From a virus: a DNA stretch of 25,324 nucleotides. The stretch spans positions 1-25,324 of the IMG/VR virus record IMGVR_UViG_3300033143_003373; one strand, written 5' to 3'. Made by a program: the position numbers and the translations under genes. The notes beneath the pieces are model-generated. The model made no database searches and was not told the DNA's origin. It saw only the letters and a list, made by a program, of their open reading frames with translations. Position 1 is the stretch's first letter. Each line of letters starts with the position of its first letter. Positions 2,199 through 16,331 of this stretch are shown here, one piece after another.

Positions 2199-3062
2199 TT
2201 AAGCATTGCCCGCCAGTTGCTTGAACCCTTCCTCGACCTTGCGGACAAGGGCAGGGTCGCGCCTGGCAGGATCGTAATACTCAGGTCTTGACATCAGTTC
2301 TTCAAGTTCTTCCCGAGTCATCGGGCTATGCGCCGCGCCACCTTCGCCGATGCCCTTGAGTTTATCCTCTCCGACAACTTGGGACAGCTTAACGAATCCC
2401 CTCACAATGTCGGGATCAACGTGCAGGCCTGCGTCAGCCAGTTTCTTGGCCGCCTCCTCCCCGAATACTTGACGAAGGGCCTTGTCAGCGGCGGTGATGT
2501 TGGCCTCATAGTTCTGCCCGTACTCCTGCTTGAGCATTTTTTCCGTTTCGGCCTTCACCTGTTCGATGGTTTGCTCTTGGGTCTGTTCCCATTCTTTGGC
2601 GTAATTCGCCAAGAAGAGCCTGATTCCATCGGCTTGGTTCGGGGTCAGACCGTACTTGTGGGCAGTTTCGGCAAACGCTTTGTCCATTTCGGGGTTGCCT
2701 TCCATGCCCTCAACCTCAGTAAACTGATATTTGTCCGGAGATTCAGGCCGCCCAATGGCTTTATAGAAGTTCGCCCATTCCTCGTCCGATGCGTTCGGGC
2801 CGGGAACGGTGATCGGGTTTTCCCCGAGCTTCTTTCTCGCTTCAACGTGGGCCTTTAACTGCTCCTCGGGGGTTTTATACCGCCCGAGAATATTGAGCGC
2901 CTCCTCGCTTTTAAGGGTCTCATCCTCGTACCCCTGAAGCCACTCAGGAATCTCCGGGGTCCCCGGTTCGCCACCCGCACCTTTTTCATCGGGTGGGGTT
3001 TCGGATGGATTCCCAGGGGTTCCTTTGGATTTGTCGTCAACATGATCATCCATCAAAGTCAT
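2199..3062 (-). CDS. Scaffolding protein (287 aa)
   Basis: This is a highly charged, mostly helical protein with no Cys and a disordered acidic/Pro-rich N-terminus (about residues 1-45). The segment around residues 90-115 (SDEEWANFYKAIGRPESPDKY) is typical of phage scaffold proteins, followed by a long helical region (about 130-215) likely to form coiled coils. Scaffolds guide capsid assembly and are released or degraded before packaging. The ATG overlaps the stop of the Bbp19-like gene by ATGA, with a GGAGGGA ribosome site 5-6 bases upstream, so translation is coupled. The major capsid gene follows. Confidence 0.82.
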   Translation of the reverse strand: MTLMDDHVDDKSKGTPGNPSETPPDEKGAGGEPGTPEIPEWLQGYEDETLKSEEALNILGRYKTPEEQLKAHVEARKKLGENPITVPGPNASDEEWANFYKAIGRPESPDKYQFTEVEGMEGNPEMDKAFAETAHKYGLTPNQADGIRLFLANYAKEWEQTQEQTIEQVKAETEKMLKQEYGQNYEANITAADKALRQVFGEEAAKKLADAGLHVDPDIVRGFVKLSQVVGEDKLKGIGEGGAAHSPMTREELEELMSRPEYYDPARRDPALVRKVEEGFKQLAGNA

Positions 3063-3355
3063 TCGTCTCCCTCCGCTGTTTGAGGTTTTGGTTGCGGCGG
3101 TTTCACTCGGGTCTTTGCCAATGCCCGAGCGATCGCCTCGTAATCCTGAGTGATGCCCATGCAGTCCAAAATGTAGAGCACCACGTCACGCCTGCCTGCC
3201 ATGAAGTCTTGCCCTCGGGGGTCCGGCTCCATGCCGGCGTCAAGGACCATGGCATAACTCATCAGGTCCCCCAGTACCCGAGGTCCCAGTGTTCCTGATG
3301 CGAATACCCGGCGGTAAATCCTTTGTCTTTCACTATCCTCTAGCAGCTCTGGCAC
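3059..3355 (-). CDS. Bbp19-like phage protein (98 aa)
   Basis: The product resembles the small Bbp19-type family found next to portal and scaffold genes in podoviruses. The pattern RRVFASGTLGPRVLGDLM at about residues 15-32, followed by GRRDVVLYILDCMGI near 54-68, matches the usual layout (RRVF, GxxVL, GRRDV). The function is not established. The position between portal and scaffold suggests a head-assembly role. The start is GTG, chosen because GGGGAGGAGG lies about 6 bases before it. The gene overlaps the end of the portal gene by 23 bases and the scaffold start by 4. Confidence 0.68.
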   Translation of the reverse strand: MPELLEDSERQRIYRRVFASGTLGPRVLGDLMSYAMVLDAGMEPDPRGQDFMAGRRDVVLYILDCMGITQDYEAIARALAKTRVKPPQPKPQTAEGDE

Positions 3356-4949
3356 TCTCAGCCTCCTCCCCAGTTTTTTCCACCGCCGCCCCTTGTGCGG
3401 CCATCTGCAACATCATTTGCAGTTGCGCCAGCTTGGCGCGTTCTTGCTCGATCATGGCAACCTCTTCCTCGCTCCGCAATGCCTCAGTCGGCGCGCCGTA
3501 AAGGTCCCATGCACGCCGGATCGCCTTCTTTGCGTCGAACACCACAGCGGCGTCAGGATCCAGTTGCAAGAACGGAACGGCGAATTGCATGGCGTTTTGA
3601 GTCGCCCGGCCCTCCAGGGCCTTCAGGGCTTTCGCAAGCGGGCTTATATAGTCCACAGTCAGGGCCTCACCTTCAAGGGCTTGCGGGGGATCCGGGAACA
3701 TGCCCGCCCGAGACATGATGTTGAATCCCCGCTCAATCGCAGGCCCCAGGGCCTCGGAATGCAGCCGCCCGATTGCAGGTCCCAGGATCATCAGCCGTTC
3801 CTGTACCCGCTCAACAACCTCGGTTGCGGTCATCCCGGTGGTCTGTTGGGAAAGCATCAAGAAGACATCCACGAAGAACGCCTGTTTAACAAGGTTGCGG
3901 GTGTCTTGCGTCATCTCCATTCCGAAGGGAACGTTGCCCAGGATCTCGCCCAGGGCCTCGGGTTTCTCCCGCCCGTGGTCCCGCCTGAAATAATTGATTG
4001 CGTTCGGGCTTGTACGTAATCGACCGGCAAAGGATGCAGGCACCCACAGGGGCGGTTCAACGATCTTCTGCCCGGCCAGAAGGTCCGAACGGCGTTGTTT
4101 GTGCAGAGTTTTAATATCTGGCATGGCGTCTATGCCAGGACCTCGCCCGTACACCTCCCTCGAAGTCTTCCGCCACCGGGCCGTGTGCCAGGGATCTTCC
4201 CAATATCCGCCCTCGTGGAGGAGGTGCCGGGTGTCTTTTTCGTAGTAGATACTTGCAAACGGCTTTCCTTCCCTGTCAATCCGTCCGGGTATCCAGTTTT
4301 CACGCGGGGTTGTGACATGTACAACCGTGATTTTCTTATCGGGCTCCTTTTCCAGGGCGTCCCGCGCCTCCCTTGAAAGGCTCTCCGCCCCAAATTCGCG
4401 GGCCAGGTTCCTCAACGTTTGCTTGTATTCCCGGTAATGAGTGTCCACTACCCCCCGCTCGTTCTCCGCAATGCACACCTCACGCGGCGGGAAGACGTAA
4501 AATCGCGATATTTCCTCATCATCCTCCGCTTGGAAGAGATGAGCGGTGCCGAACCCGCATAAATCTTCGTAAAATTCCAAGATAACTTGGTAAAAATTGG
4601 TTTTCCCCAGGCTTTCAACGTGGATCCGGGTAACATCTTCGAGCCATTCCCGTACATCCGGCTCGTCGATAAGTTGGGTATTGACAAGGCGATACTGAAA
4701 CCATGGCGCCGCTTCAGAAGTAAGGTGCCCCAGGAGACCGGCGGATAGGATATTGAGCGATTGGCTCGGGGTTGAATCGTAAACCTTGTCGGTCCGCTTT
4801 TCCCCGGCCTGGGATTCGCTCGTGACGTACTCCTTCCAGGGCATCAAGTAAGTAACCACATCTTCCCAGCGTTGTTCCCATAGAGTTCGGCTTGTCAGCA
4901 GGGCATCGTGGCGTGCGGCATGATATTTGATAATGTCGTCGGTTCTCAT
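3333..4949 (-). CDS. Portal protein, head-to-tail connector (538 aa)
   Basis: This is the dodecameric portal of the T7 gp8 / head-to-tail connecting protein family, the channel through which DNA is packaged and ejected. The N-terminal helical region (RTLWEQRWEDVVTYLMPWK) followed by SQSLNILSAGLLGHLTS near residue 62 is typical. The length of 538 residues matches T7-like portals. The stretch QQTTGMTATEVVERVQERL at about 366-384 corresponds to the MTATEV motif of this family. The C-terminus is a charged helix (about 490-538). The ATG overlaps the preceding stop by one base (TAATG), with CGGAGG 8 bases upstream. This family is the main evidence for a podovirus-type virion. Confidence 0.92.
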   Translation of the reverse strand: MRTDDIIKYHAARHDALLTSRTLWEQRWEDVVTYLMPWKEYVTSESQAGEKRTDKVYDSTPSQSLNILSAGLLGHLTSEAAPWFQYRLVNTQLIDEPDVREWLEDVTRIHVESLGKTNFYQVILEFYEDLCGFGTAHLFQAEDDEEISRFYVFPPREVCIAENERGVVDTHYREYKQTLRNLAREFGAESLSREARDALEKEPDKKITVVHVTTPRENWIPGRIDREGKPFASIYYEKDTRHLLHEGGYWEDPWHTARWRKTSREVYGRGPGIDAMPDIKTLHKQRRSDLLAGQKIVEPPLWVPASFAGRLRTSPNAINYFRRDHGREKPEALGEILGNVPFGMEMTQDTRNLVKQAFFVDVFLMLSQQTTGMTATEVVERVQERLMILGPAIGRLHSEALGPAIERGFNIMSRAGMFPDPPQALEGEALTVDYISPLAKALKALEGRATQNAMQFAVPFLQLDPDAAVVFDAKKAIRRAWDLYGAPTEALRSEEEVAMIEQERAKLAQLQMMLQMAAQGAAVEKTGEEAESARAARG

Positions 4950-11524: not shown

Positions 11525-12434
11525 CGCCGTATCCTTCCGATTCAAGTTTTTCCTTGGCCCGACGGGCCGCTTCATTGAAATCATCGCTGAAAGTTTTTCC
11601 GTATGGTGAGGCCCTCGCTCTGTCTTGGGCTTTCGTTAGCCATGTAGTGAGATGCCGCAAAATTCCCCGCTCAGTTTTTCGCCGCGTTGGATTAGCCAGG
11701 CTCCATGCTCTGGCTTTCCGCAGCTCGTCCATCACGTCAATCCCAGGAAACAGGTCTCGCCATTCATCAACCATTGCCTGAGTGATGGGGTACTCTTTCG
11801 GTTTACCGTCACCGTTTTTGTGAACAAGGGGAATTTTTATCACTGGAGGAGGAAGGGGGGTAGCCATTTGTCGGTCCGGTGCGATTTTATCGCGCTGGAC
11901 AAAAGAAGATTCTTTAGAATCTTCTTTATTATTAACTGAAGATGAAGATGAAGATGAAGAAAGGGGGGGGGACATTTCGGGGACACTATTGGGACGTTCC
12001 TTTTTTGCCCGCTGCTTTCTCTTTTTTAACTTCTCGTTTTCCTTATGTTTATAGTCATTATACATGCGTCTGTTTTTGATGGAGACATAAACGGTACAAA
12101 ATTGGGACAGGTCGGGACATTTAGGGGACAAGTTACAAAAAAAATCAGCGGCCTCCTGAACAAGGCCCCTGCAATTATCATCCCGGTAGGTGACATCTGC
12201 GATGCCGTTCACGTCTAATTCGCGGATGATATAACATGCTTCCGGGATGTCGATTCGCCACGTTTGAGCAAACCCTTTGACGTGTGTCTCAATACGGCCT
12301 TGTGGGGTCTCGTCCCACATTATCATGAGCAATTCAGCCCATGCCCCACGGACCGAAAGATCCACACGTTTCAACCCCGGTTCCCTAAACCAATCCCCAG
12401 GGTAAAATTGAAAGGCCGGGGCCTTGTGAGCCAT
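11514..12434 (-). CDS. Replication initiator (DUF1376-like N-terminus, 306 aa)
   Basis: Residues 6-40 (PAFQFYPGDWFREPG then SVRGAWAELLMIMWDE) match the DUF1376-type start of phage replication proteins, with NRRMYNDY near 121. A highly basic stretch (135-147, KLKKRKQRAKK) and a Ser8 run (159-166) form a flexible linker. Residues 222-270 (VDEWRDLFPGIDV then RRKTERGILRHLTTWL) are the C-terminal domain typical of these initiators. It probably binds the origin and recruits the helicase through the next gene. The ATG at 12434 has GGAGGG four bases upstream and overlaps the repressor stop (TGATG). The linker DNA has AT-rich repeats that may be the origin. Confidence 0.78.
   Translation of the reverse strand: MAHKAPAFQFYPGDWFREPGLKRVDLSVRGAWAELLMIMWDETPQGRIETHVKGFAQTWRIDIPEACYIIRELDVNGIADVTYRDDNCRGLVQEAADFFCNLSPKCPDLSQFCTVYVSIKNRRMYNDYKHKENEKLKKRKQRAKKERPNSVPEMSPPLSSSSSSSSVNNKEDSKESSFVQRDKIAPDRQMATPLPPPVIKIPLVHKNGDGKPKEYPITQAMVDEWRDLFPGIDVMDELRKARAWSLANPTRRKTERGILRHLTTWLTKAQDRARASPYGKTFSDDFNEAARRAKEKLESEGYGDEV
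11890..11970. other. Candidate replication origin in the initiator gene
   Basis: The linker-coding DNA holds a near-perfect palindrome (11902-11927; 12-base arms AAAGAAGATTCT/AGAATCTTCTTT with two bases between), an AT-rich stretch (11924-11938) and four to five six-base repeats GAAGAT/GATGAA (11937-11962). In lambdoid phages the origin lies inside the initiator gene, so the place is right. The repeats are short for iterons, so the call is weak. Confidence 0.3.
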
Positions 12435-12622
12435 CAATCCCTCCAAAGGTCTTCCAGGCGGACCTCACCGTCGGTCCATTTGACGATCTTGATCGCCATT
12501 TTCCGACCGGCGGGCTGTCGCCCAGAGATGATCTCATGGATCCACTGGCGGGTGCAGCCTAGTTGTTTGGCTGCTTCCGTGATTCCTATCCCATTGAGCT
12601 TTAAATAGGTTTGTAGTTTCAT
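12434..12622 (-). CDS. Cro/XRE-type helix-turn-helix regulator (62 aa)
   Basis: Residues 14-35 (ITEAAKQLGCTRQWIHEIIS) form a clear lambda-Cro-like helix-turn-helix, with GRQPAGRKMAIKIVKWTDG completing the small fold. At 62 residues it is the size of Cro proteins. It would bind operators in the 12620-12740 switch and repress one or both promoters. The ATG at 12622 follows a TATAAT box by only 7 bases and has no ribosome site, so the mRNA is probably leaderless. It is the first gene of the replication operon and its stop overlaps the initiator start. Confidence 0.82.
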   Translation of the reverse strand: MKLQTYLKLNGIGITEAAKQLGCTRQWIHEIISGRQPAGRKMAIKIVKWTDGEVRLEDLWRD

Positions 12623-12629
12623 GCCCGCA

Positions 12630-12657
12630 ATTATAGTATATTTCAAGTGTCTGTCAA
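12630..12657 (-). promoter_or_regulatory. Near-consensus promoter for the repressor and replication operon
   Basis: Minus-strand TTGACA (12652-12657) and TATAAT (12630-12635) are both perfect, with a 16-base spacer. Transcription should begin at or within a base or two of the ATG at 12622. Confidence 0.85.
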
Positions 12658-12705: not shown

Positions 12706-12734
12706 TTGACATCGGGCAAACCCCTTGATAGAGT
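12706..12734 (+). promoter_or_regulatory. Rightward early promoter
   Basis: TTGACA (12706-12711), a 17-base spacer and TAGAGT (12729-12734, 4 of 6) drive the plus-strand genes. It is divergent from the repressor promoter, with 48 bases between the two -35 boxes. Confidence 0.72.
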
Positions 12735-12740
12735 GAGGAC

Positions 12741-12876
12741 AACAAGCTGGGCGAGGGGCTACATACCTCCCCGGGTAAAGTGCCGAGGCCAGGGGGTAGG
12801 GTCCCTGGCCGGCCCCAAGCCTGGCTTGTTCCCGAAAACCCCCTAACGGGTCGCCGGGTGCCCGTTACCCGCCCGG
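12741..12876 (+). ncRNA. Structured 5' leader RNA of the early transcript
   Basis: Directly after the early promoter the transcript folds strongly. A 12-pair helix joins 12741-12752 and 12819-12830 (two G-U pairs). It encloses a short hairpin (GGGG 12755-12758 with CCCC 12769-12772) and a hairpin of 8 perfect pairs (12787-12794/12803-12810) extended by GCC/GGC across a two-base bulge. After the multibranch unit, TAACGGG (12844-12850) pairs with CCCGTTA (12861-12867), with a competing CCGGG/CCCGG pairing (12854-12858/12872-12876) just before the ribosome site at 12881-12886. No T-run follows. The layout recalls antitermination leader RNAs such as HK022 put, or a cis regulator, but I recognise no known class. 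Confidence 0.5.
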
Positions 12877-12895
12877 TAGAAAGGAGAAAAGAAAG

Positions 12896-13180
12896 ATGGA
12901 AGGATACTACATTGTACGGACTTATTCAGCGGGAGTGTTCGCGGGTGAAATTGAGTCCCGCGATGGTAAGGAAGTCGTGATGAGAAATGCTCGCCGCCTC
13001 TGGTACTGGGATGGGGCGGCGTCTTTGTCTCAACTCGCTATGGAAGGAGTAAGTAAACCCCAAAATTGCAAGTTCCCCTGTGAGGTCAAAAGGATCATCC
13101 TCACAGAGGTTATAGAAATTTTGGAATGCACTCCAGAGGCAAAAGCCTCAATTGAGGAGGTGCCAGTATGGAGTGCATAA
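12896..13180 (+). CDS. DUF6948-like phage protein (94 aa)
   Basis: The sequence VRTYSAGVFAGEIESRDGKE near residues 7-26 and ARRLWYWDGAASLSQLAMEG near 32-51 are hallmarks of the small DUF6948-type family seen in many phages and mobile elements. Its function is not known to me. The product is 94 residues and close to full length, ending in VPVWSA. AAAGGAG lies before the ATG, and it is the first gene after the structured leader. The last 13 bases also contain the start codon of the glycine-repeat gene in another frame, so the two are translationally linked. Confidence 0.82.
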   Translation: MEGYYIVRTYSAGVFAGEIESRDGKEVVMRNARRLWYWDGAASLSQLAMEGVSKPQNCKFPCEVKRIILTEVIEILECTPEAKASIEEVPVWSA

Positions 13181-13413
13181 ATTTTGGCTACGGCGACGGC
13201 TTCGGCGACGGCTTCGGCGACGGCGATAGCTCCGGCTCCAGCTCCAGCTACGGCTCCGGCTACGGTTCCGGCTACGGTTCTGGCTTCGGCGACGGCTTCG
13301 GCGATGGCGATGGCTCTGGATCCGGCTCCGGCAATGGCAATGGCAATGGCAACGGCAATGGCAATGGCTACGGCGACGGCTTCGGCGACGGCTTCGGCGA
13401 CGGCTTCGGCTAG
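13168..13413 (+). CDS. Gly-X dipeptide-repeat protein, copy 1 (81 aa)
   Basis: After the leader MECINF, every second residue is Gly with few exceptions, and the partner is Tyr, Phe, Asp, Ser or Asn (for example GYGDGFGDGFGDGD, later GNGNGNGNGNGNGY). GAGGAGG lies 7 bases before the ATG, which is inside the end of the DUF6948-like gene. In an extended strand all side chains would lie on one face and all glycines on the other, as in silk-like or amyloid-forming repeats. The protein could self-assemble, bind nucleic acid or metal (Asp-rich), or form condensates; none of this is shown. Repeat DNA keeps other frames open, so strand and frame were chosen by ribosome site and coupling. Confidence 0.68.
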   Translation: MECINFGYGDGFGDGFGDGDSSGSSSSYGSGYGSGYGSGFGDGFGDGDGSGSGSGNGNGNGNGNGNGYGDGFGDGFGDGFG

Positions 13414-13421
13414 GTGCCAGT

Positions 13422-13577
13422 ATGGAGTGCATAAATTTTAGCTCCGGATCCGCCTCCGGCGAGAGCAACGGCTCCGGCGATAGCAACGGCTACGGTTCTG
13501 GCTTCGGCGACGGCTTCGGCGATGGCGATGGCTCTGGCAATGGCTACGGCGGCGGATCCGGCTCCGGCTACGGCTAA
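13422..13577 (+). CDS. Gly-X dipeptide-repeat protein, copy 2 (51 aa)
   Basis: This shorter second copy begins with the same MECINF leader and then SSGSASGESNGSGDSNGYGS, followed by the same Gly-Asp/Phe/Tyr repeats and a TAA stop. Its upstream 28 bases are identical to copy 1, but the ribosome site is reduced to TAGG because the duplicated segment lacks the GAG part, so translation may be weaker. The middle is less regular, with Glu and Ala, which suggests either decay or separate selection. It lies nine bases after the TAG stop of copy 1. Confidence 0.6.
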   Translation: MECINFSSGSASGESNGSGDSNGYGSGFGDGFGDGDGSGNGYGGGSGSGYG

Positions 13578-14361: not shown

Positions 14362-15082
14362 GATCTACAAAAAAGACGGAAAAAGCTATCCGTCCTCGAC
14401 GACAATAACGGGCCAGCTTGACAAGAGCGGGCCCCTTACATGGTGGGCCGCCGGATGCGCGGCCGACTACGTGATTAAAAAAATCAACGAGGCCAAGACT
14501 CAGACTTTTAAAGCAGCCACCGTTATCCAATTCGCCGAACTTGCTCGAAAGCAATTCCGGGCTGTCTCCAGCCAAGCGGCTGATGTCGGCACGGCCGTCC
14601 ACAAGGCAATAGAGCACTATCTGAAAACCGGCAGGGAACCCAAGGTTGAAGATGATGAGGTTCTTGCTGGTTTTTTGGCTTTCCTGGAGTGGGCCGACAA
14701 ACATGAACTCAAGCCTATTGAAACAGAAGTTACTTTATATGGCGAAAACTACGCCGGCACCTGCGATCTTATCTGCACCCTGGATGGCAGGCCCTACGTC
14801 ATTGATTTCAAAACCTCCAAGGCCCCGAAAAACGGCAAGCCCTATGAAGAATGGGGCTACCAGCTCGCGTCATACAGACATGCCGCCGAGCTTGCCAACC
14901 TGGTCCCCGAAGACGCCGGCCATGGCGTCCTGCGCCTCGATAAAGAAACAGGATACCCTGATTGGCACGACATAACTGATCAGTATGAACGAGACCTGGC
15001 GATCTTTCAGGCTCTCACCAAAATATGGTGGCTCCGTCATCCGCAGTATGCGGCGGACTGGGAAGGAACTCTTGGTATATGA
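14354..15082 (+). CDS. RecB/Cas4-like PD-(D/E)XK nuclease (242 aa)
   Basis: This is a DNA exonuclease of the PD-(D/E)XK superfamily. The pieces are in the expected order: GTAVHKAIEHYL (79-90) with the motif His 83, E124, D138 in AGTCDLICT, then VIDFKTSK (149-156) with D151 and K153, and YQLASYRHA (169-177), the Q-Y motif. AGGAGATAACAC precedes the ATG. In phages such a nuclease resects ends to expose single strands for a partner annealing protein, and the next gene is a good candidate partner. It lacks the Cys cluster of true Cas4. Confidence 0.85.
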   Translation: MGRIYKKDGKSYPSSTTITGQLDKSGPLTWWAAGCAADYVIKKINEAKTQTFKAATVIQFAELARKQFRAVSSQAADVGTAVHKAIEHYLKTGREPKVEDDEVLAGFLAFLEWADKHELKPIETEVTLYGENYAGTCDLICTLDGRPYVIDFKTSKAPKNGKPYEEWGYQLASYRHAAELANLVPEDAGHGVLRLDKETGYPDWHDITDQYERDLAIFQALTKIWWLRHPQYAADWEGTLGI

Positions 15083-15095
15083 AAGGAGGAAAAAT

Positions 15096-16331
15096 ATGGA
15101 AATGAACAGCAGCCCAGAGCTCAATTTTGACAAAGCCGAGGCCTCTCAAACAACCCCGGCCCAGGTCCCGGCTCCAGTTGCCCAGGAAATTACCCCGCGA
15201 ATAGTCAACATTGAAGACTACGCCATGAGCGCGCAAGGGTTGATCAAGCAGGTTCATCTTATCCAAGAGGTAATGCGCGAGGTCATGCAAGAGGGGGAAC
15301 ATTACGGGACCATCCCCGGAACACAAAAACCTACCTTGTACCAGCCTGGCGCCCAAAAATTGGCAATGACGTTTCGTCTTGATCCCCGCTTTACCATCGT
15401 CCGGGAAATCCATCAAGAGCGATTCATTGCATATTGGGTCCGTTGCGATCTTTACCATATTATCTCGTGGGTTCATGTCAGTTCGGGTATGGGGTCTTGC
15501 AACAGCAGGGAAGAAAAGTATCGCTGGAGATACAAAGAAACTCTTACTGATAAGCCTGTTCCCAAAGAATACTGGAACCTTCGCAACAAGAAAAACCTAA
15601 CCGAAGATGACCGAAAAAAGATGCTCCGTTTAGTTCCCAAAGAATATGCCACCAGGAAAAACGACGAAGGCAAGTGGGTCCTTGCCAAAAAGGAGCGGAT
15701 CGAAAATGACAATCCCTGGGACCTTGATAATACCCTACTCAAAATGGCCTGCAAGCGGGCCTTTGTGATGTCGGTTCTGAATGGGACCGCCGCATCCGAT
15801 ATTTTCACGCAGGACGTGGAAGATTTGCCAGCCGATTATCTAAATGCGGAAACCCCGCCCCCTCCAAACCAAAAACCTTCACAAAGCAAGCCAAAAAAAT
15901 CGAATAGTAGCTTTAAGAAGTTCCTTGATAGCATGGCCAACCTAAAAGCCGAACTCAATAAACTCACCGGCAATGATAATACTTATTATGGCGTACTGGG
16001 GTCCCACGGGTTTGAAAAATCGAATCAAATCAAAGACCGAAAAACTCAGATCGAAGTTTATACTGACATGCTGAAAAAGCTGGAGGCCCTTAAGAACACA
16101 GCCGAGCCCGCCGAGGATGCCTTCACGGCAGAGGTGAAAAAACTCGCCGAGGCAGAGGTGAAAAAACTTGCCGAGGCAGAGGTGAAAAAACTTGCCGAAA
16201 GGATCCCCGGCGATGTGTACCAGGGGATCCTCGAAGTATACGACATTGAAGACCCCGCCGACCTCGCTGAAGACGCCAGGGAAGGGTTCCTGGAAGATAT
16301 GCAGAAGGCGGTGGAGATGTACGACAAATGA
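15096..16331 (+). CDS. Putative recombination/single-strand annealing-type protein (411 aa)
   Basis: The core region has GEHYGTIPGT (67-76), LYQPGAQKLAMTF (81-93), GMGSCNSREEKYRWRY (131-146) and NTLLKMACKRAFVMSVLNGT (212-231) followed by DIFTQDVEDL. I know this pattern from uncharacterised phage and mobile-element proteins encoded beside RecB-like nucleases, so an annealing or recombination-mediator role is inferred. A Pro/Ser linker (252-275) leads to a helical tail with three copies of AEVKKLAE (345-368). The start at 15096 is supported by AAAGGAGGAAAAAT; a longer frame would overlap the nuclease gene. The stop overlaps the methyltransferase start by ATGA. Confidence 0.68.
   Translation: MEMNSSPELNFDKAEASQTTPAQVPAPVAQEITPRIVNIEDYAMSAQGLIKQVHLIQEVMREVMQEGEHYGTIPGTQKPTLYQPGAQKLAMTFRLDPRFTIVREIHQERFIAYWVRCDLYHIISWVHVSSGMGSCNSREEKYRWRYKETLTDKPVPKEYWNLRNKKNLTEDDRKKMLRLVPKEYATRKNDEGKWVLAKKERIENDNPWDLDNTLLKMACKRAFVMSVLNGTAASDIFTQDVEDLPADYLNAETPPPPNQKPSQSKPKKSNSSFKKFLDSMANLKAELNKLTGNDNTYYGVLGSHGFEKSNQIKDRKTQIEVYTDMLKKLEALKNTAEPAEDAFTAEVKKLAEAEVKKLAEAEVKKLAERIPGDVYQGILEVYDIEDPADLAEDAREGFLEDMQKAVEMYDK
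16128..16199 (+). repeat. Three tandem 24-bp units in the annealing-type gene
   Basis: Units at 16128-16151, 16152-16175 and 16176-16199 differ by one or two bases each and encode AEVKKLAE three times in a coiled-coil tail. Copy number could vary without breaking the frame. Confidence 0.92.

Follow-up and report, generated by a model that had tools for sequence, protein, structure and literature searches.

Phages of many groups share a two-gene unit, in which a gene of the DUF6948 family (PF22253) is followed by a gene for a protein with glycine at almost every second position (Gly-X), whose start codon is nested in the upstream gene; the pairing is nearly universal, the Gly-X sequence is constrained at the protein level and its composition is matched to the clade of the DUF6948 partner. 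A structure model and the analogy with bacterial Hfq tentatively suggest that this unit may provide an early phage Sm-fold core and, in trans, a disordered Gly-X partner, which would act as a detached Hfq-like tail or as a condensate scaffold.

The DUF6948/Gly-X Locus

The window analysed is the whole 25,324-base IMG/VR record IMGVR_UViG_3300033143_003373, and its relevant features are the following:

12706..12734 (+): promoter-like site upstream of DUF6948, from a consensus scan only (10/12 matches)
12896..13180 (+): DUF6948 gene, 94 aa, PF22253, predicted Sm/LSm-type five-stranded barrel
13158..13185 (+): direct repeat, copy A, covering the DUF6948 end and the start of Gly-X 1 (blast, 100% over 28 nt)
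13168..13413 (+): Gly-X repeat ORF1, 81 aa, with its ATG within the last 13 nt of DUF6948
13186..13412 (+): hexanucleotide array (GGC NNY)n of ORF1 (TRF, period 6, 37.8 copies)
13412..13439 (+): direct repeat, copy B, at the start of Gly-X 2, an exact 28-nt duplicate of copy A
13422..13577 (+): Gly-X repeat ORF2, 51 aa, a tandem copy located 8 nt past the ORF1 stop
13468..13576 (+): hexanucleotide array of ORF2 (TRF, period 6, 18.2 copies)

The initial annotation had reported a DUF6948-like gene with two successive Gly-X ORFs, the first of which starts inside the upstream gene, and this description was confirmed together with the ORF coordinates: the window gene matches PF22253 with an E value of 5e-33 and 113.5 bits, above the curated cut-off of 27, and the start of ORF1 overlaps the DUF6948 ORF by 13 nt. 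The MECINF sequence that had been noticed at the beginning of both proteins is indeed present, but it does not represent independent evidence, since the two ORFs share it because of the exact 28-nt duplication of the start region, and residues 2 and 4 (a codon starting with G and I/L/V, respectively) are dictated by the TGG and stop codons of the upstream gene, which the start region overlaps. ORF2 is possibly translated by re-initiation. The Gly-X start of the window can form a hairpin of 10 bp (z -1.5); masking of the start by a hairpin was discarded as a general mechanism, the homologous starts being slightly more open than control windows.

The promoter-like site that precedes DUF6948 is divergent from the repressor promoter-like site; the small HTH/YdaS-like gene at 12434-12646 on the minus strand has a perfect 12/12 sigma-70-like site at 12630-12657, in divergent orientation to that of DUF6948. 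Between the promoter-like site and DUF6948, a GC-rich, strongly structured early leader is found (12738-12895; MFE -72.5 kcal/mol, z -1.7), with an outer stem of 12 bp and an inner stem of 9 bp, which has no match in Rfam and is absent from the other loci checked. Elsewhere in the window, the ORF at 14985-16331 (phrog_10048) contains three near-perfect 24-nt tandem repeats coding for AEVKKLAE (16127-16198).

Linkage of DUF6948 and Gly-X in Phages

The search for Gly-X proteins beside DUF6948 in other phages, which had been proposed as a check, was performed on 80 related virus loci and 31 loci from bacterial or archaeal assemblies, retrieved with the window DUF6948 as query, and on a further 87 loci from more divergent queries. 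Using a strict rule (tract start at -40 to +300 nt from the DUF6948 stop, tract length of 12 residues or more), a Gly-X tract was found right after DUF6948 in 144 of the 157 distinct loci having at least 100 nt downstream; in most of the 13 exceptions the Gly-X ORF is short or irregular, or the contig ends within the array, and one is a fragment. Outside this position, the same loci contain two Gly-X tracts in 1.06 Mb, and the Gly alternation described initially is thus far beyond chance, although it is imperfect, as in ORF1 Ser replaces Gly at several positions (GGC to AGC, e.g., “DSSGSSSSY”).

The 13-nt overlap between DUF6948 and the Gly-X start is exact in most canonical loci, with a 17-nt overlap being common in the Pectobacterium-type clade, and tandem Gly-X ORFs are also present in L018, L047, L049, L065 and L266. 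The pairing is kept in divergent groups, comprising Pectobacterium-type, RcapNL-type and Barba phages and Eggerthella PMBT5, whose upstream gene resembles DUF6948 by fold only; among cultured phages, the same arrangement occurs in those of Pectobacterium, Dickeya, Vibrio, Iodobacter, Rhodobacter, Rheinheimera and Eggerthella. The other window genes that were tested recur in at most two other loci and, in L083, which accounts for one of the two outlying tracts, the whole pair is duplicated in tandem; these findings indicate that DUF6948 and Gly-X are inherited as a unit, which moves as a cassette, since the neighbouring genes differ. A census of the neighbouring families identified replication, recombination, terminase and HNH genes, none of them being a constant neighbour, and the position of the DUF6948 gene also differs between phages. 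In a survey of bacterial genomes, DUF6948 was detected in 0/397 and 1/397, apart from two genomes picked for carrying it, a rarity indicating that it is mainly a phage gene.

No in-frame fusion of DUF6948 to a Gly-X tract was found among about 170 loci, unlike Hfq, whose acidic C-terminal tail is covalent. A candidate fusion, phrog_18306, was rejected, being only a weak low-complexity match, with genome scans free of any fusion; weak Gly-X DNA matches in Microbacterium Zeta1847 and Gordonia VanLee proved to be the antisense of Pro-Glu repeats. The Gly-X gene is labelled “lamprin” in two Manatee Spring phage records of GenBank (MW202613.1 and MW202748.1), which is probably a low-complexity misannotation.

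A literature search, with subscription journals mostly outside its range, returned no paper naming DUF6948, and within the same range the reports on Gly-rich phage proteins and on phage Sm-like proteins contain nothing describing this pair, which seems to be undescribed. The suggestion of a small, undescribed system linked to DUF6948 is thus strongly supported by the near-universal linkage in many phage groups and by this literature; its designation as “early” derives entirely from gene position and promoter-like sites.

Predicted Fold of DUF6948

PF22253, to which the window gene clearly belongs, is a family without assigned function, the Gly-X partner lying outside the family model. DUF6948 is predicted to fold as an Sm/LSm-type barrel, a feature that was not among the points of the initial annotation. 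The AF2 monomer model, built from 55 sequences, has a pLDDT of 95.7 and a pTM of 0.86, and its leading Foldseek matches in the PDB are nearly all Sm/LSm proteins (E from 3e-3 upwards, probability 1.00), two of the top eight rows being the designed TIP60 nanoparticle. When aligned with VIA-align to the rings of Sm proteins from archaea and LSm proteins from eukaryotes, the model gave Z scores of 7.5–6.6, with rmsd values mostly of 1.5–2.9 Å over about 60 residues; the tool rates Z values near 7 as middling and such a value, alone, could perhaps indicate a common arrangement, yet a single family makes up most of the match list. PDB 3by7, which ranks with the best Foldseek hits, is an environmental Sm/LSm-like protein having the Sm fold but lying outside the cellular Sm families; its identity to DUF6948 is 13–19% and, to our knowledge, it has no Gly-X partner. 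In a library of viral structures, the matches of the model include the upstream-type proteins of two cultured phages, Rheinheimera phage Barba, with an E of 1e-4, and Eggerthella PMBT5, with a weak E of 0.08; neither protein has a Pfam match, and both are followed by Gly-X.

At the sequence level, the LSM, Hfq and Rof Pfam profiles gave no match at E ≤ 1 with the 55 DUF6948 members, one other member showing weak matches to SM-ATX (0.05) and LSM14 (0.15); a PDB sequence search with DUF6948 gave no significant match and the loop motifs typical of RNA-binding Sm proteins are not apparent. Given fold matches without profile matches, the protein is designated here as “Sm-fold”, and not as a member of the Sm, LSm or Hfq sequence families; if the model is correct, DUF6948 would add a new branch to a fold that is already known. 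Conserved elements include an RRLWYWDG loop, with YWDG invariant, a C-terminal W and other aromatics; the median net charge is +2, and the window copy is slightly acidic (-3).

Composition and Constraint of the Gly-X Proteins

The Gly-X set comprises 165 distinct proteins; closed ORFs of less than 180 residues have a median length of about 84 residues and a median net charge of -7, with 96% of them being negative. The X positions are occupied by S (35%), Y (28%), D (20%), N (9%) and F (2%), K and R together representing less than 1%. A plain nucleic-acid-binding peptide, one of the roles that had been considered for the alternating chain, is disfavoured by a tract that is acidic and almost devoid of K and R.

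Several findings indicate selection on the protein. Across locus GC contents of 25–65%, no trend is seen for the fractions of S, D and N, and weak ones are seen for Y and F. Third bases that change the residue are depleted (GAR and TTR 2.5%, compared to 9.2% for Ser TCR; p 2e-6); in a larger pooled set the contrast between Ser and Asp holds (6.3% vs. 1.8%), while TTR is at 10%, on small numbers. Near-identical prophage alleles and Barba isolates differ mainly by gain or loss of whole hexamers and by changes of X, with the frame kept. Conserved DNA with a broken frame, the case that had been named as the refutation of a selected protein, is represented by a single frameshifted allele (L279) out of about twenty prophage alleles; another one, L271, has a different 3′-end. 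Gly-X composition is therefore held at the protein level, while array length changes in frame.

The composition also follows the partner. In the divergent Sm clade, which includes RcapNL, Barba, Eggerthella and their relatives, the mean Ser fraction is 0.00, compared to 0.39 and 0.34 elsewhere, and these Ser-free tracts span a GC content of 38–65%; this clade is the best sign that Gly-X is matched to its own Sm-fold partner. Aromatic residues account for 13% of Gly-X, and the gaps between them are more even than in shuffled sequences in 91 of 127 tracts; S, D and N are likewise evenly spaced, so that the spacing is compatible with a sticker-and-spacer chain, but it is not specific to aromatics.

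Gly-X Tracts Joined to Other Domains

In gut phages a different architecture occurs, in which a short N-terminal segment is followed by the Gly-X tract and by a C-terminal folded domain, some 150 residues long, containing FAHG and WHHxLTGSC motifs (L102:6498-6959; about 167 IMG/VR loci); in many of these loci the DUF6948 motif was detected upstream. The C-terminal domain almost always has a Gly-X tract before its start; its AF2 model has a pLDDT of 94.5, and Foldseek and VIA-align found no clear PDB match, hence no functional clue. In L126 (about 2800-3592), a DUF7666 domain (E 7e-28) precedes Gly-X and the same C-terminal domain. Fusion to an unrelated folded domain suggests that Gly-X may be a general-purpose linker, and it counts against the proposal of a tail acting in trans.

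Possible Roles of the Pair

According to the proposal that is tentatively preferred here, DUF6948 and Gly-X would be translationally coupled, and the Sm-fold protein would assemble into a ring whose targets would be RNA, of the phage or of the host, or ssDNA, at an early stage of infection; Gly-X, being acidic and aromatic, would serve this core as a low-complexity tail supplied in trans. The missing Sm-type sequence profiles, the slightly acidic charge of the window DUF6948 and the lack of DUF6948-Gly-X fusions in the loci scanned count against this proposal. Two options can be envisaged: Gly-X could vie with nucleic acid for binding to the core, in the manner of the acidic Hfq tail, or it could condense the core via dispersed Tyr and Phe. 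By mimicking nucleic acid, the acidic tail of Hfq binds to the Sm core, as found using a CTD peptide (PMC5606850), the tail of Acinetobacter Hfq is Gly-rich, with GGFGGQ repeats (PMC11617691), and lambda Red recombination is affected by Hfq and by its tail (PMC10392684). As to the second option, prion-like domains such as those of FUS and hnRNPA1 are also rich in Gly, Ser and Tyr, and keep their composition and dispersed aromatics as the sequence drifts (PMC9748015); unlike them, Gly-X is strictly Gly-alternating, acidic and stand-alone, and has fewer aromatics (15–20% in prion-like domains). A bolder version, in which the Sm-fold ring of phages from many bacterial phyla binds and the partner-tuned, fast-evolving dipeptide-repeat polymer forms a condensate around early phage nucleic acid, appears rather unlikely.

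Alternatively, the roles could be reversed, with the Sm-fold protein being a reader or chaperone of Gly-X, whose Tyr-Gly repeats would be bound by the W/Y/F-rich barrel loop, and Gly-X being the effector, as a decoy or scaffold for a host factor. The invariant YWDG and the other conserved aromatics, the shift of Gly-X composition with the Sm clade and the strict coupling of the two genes are in agreement with this possibility, which is made unlikely by the occurrence of Gly-X tracts next to other folded domains.

Rho is a known phage target, and a role in antitermination of the early operon was also considered, whereby DUF6948, as an Sm-fold protein, would inhibit the Rho factor of the host or a different RNA-handling machine, with Gly-X helping by occupying the RNA site. 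Rof (YaeO), a small Sm-like protein, indeed prevents Rho from binding RNA (PMC11018626), and in the window DUF6948 is the first gene past the divergent promoter-like pair; however, the 55 members have no sequence match to Rof and the gene is differently located in other phages, which makes this explanation improbable.

Array Turnover and Codon Use

The nucleotide pattern of the arrays bears on whether the repeat itself is what is maintained. Within a tract, third positions are near-uniform (0.25 and 0.24 bits), compared to about 1 bit for each of the first two X positions, while between tracts third positions vary (1.02 and 1.18 bits). Gly codon use is bimodal, most tracts being almost pure GGC and some pure GGT, GGA or GGG; GGC dominates even where the adjacent DUF6948 gene avoids GC-ending Gly codons and, over 165 tracts, this preference is independent of genome GC, which is instead tracked by the third base of X. 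A general excess of GGC has been reported for low-complexity regions of prokaryotes (PMC6821194). The simplest reading is a fast turnover of whole hexamers combined with selection on X identity. Two identical units follow each other less often than they do after shuffling of the tracts (ratio 0.86, z -6.9), whereas simple slippage would have the reverse effect. A diversity-generating retroelement, considered in view of the NNY X codons, is disfavoured, as T positions vary as well as A.

These data make it improbable that Gly-X is a passive spacer or remnant, i.e., slippage-prone filler behind DUF6948, which stays open since (GGY NNY)n seldom yields stops: repeats do grow and shrink quickly, and L068, L097 and L110 have a few units only, but a filler would not explain the depletion of identical neighbours, the narrow set of residues, and the presence beside almost every DUF6948 and almost nowhere else. 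Selection of the hexanucleotide array as DNA or RNA (a replication, recombination or pausing element), with the peptide as a by-product, would fit the uniform third positions and the preference for GGC at any GC, but it is very improbable in view of the pure GGT, GGA and GGG tracts, the synonymous freedom with depletion of amino-acid changes, the conserved frame and overlap, and the composition that tracks the partner clade.

Relation to Known Systems and Significance

The pair resembles Hfq and the bacterial and archaeal Sm proteins in having a short protein, predicted to be an Sm barrel, associated with an acidic or Gly-rich disordered segment; it differs from them in that DUF6948 has no Sm/Hfq profile and contains an extra loop-helix insertion, the disordered part is coded by a separate gene, and the unit is phage-borne. 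We know of no system that combines an Sm-fold protein with a separate dipeptide-repeat protein.

These findings give a domain of no assigned function a predicted Sm fold and a partner that is almost obligatory, and make its function testable in cultured phages, e.g., Rheinheimera Barba. The Gly-X proteins constitute a natural series of minimal polymers, which differ in length and composition but retain the same partner and position, and they provide a data set on the selection of low-complexity proteins. Should the two proteins act in trans, the pair would represent an Sm core with its tail encoded by a gene of its own.
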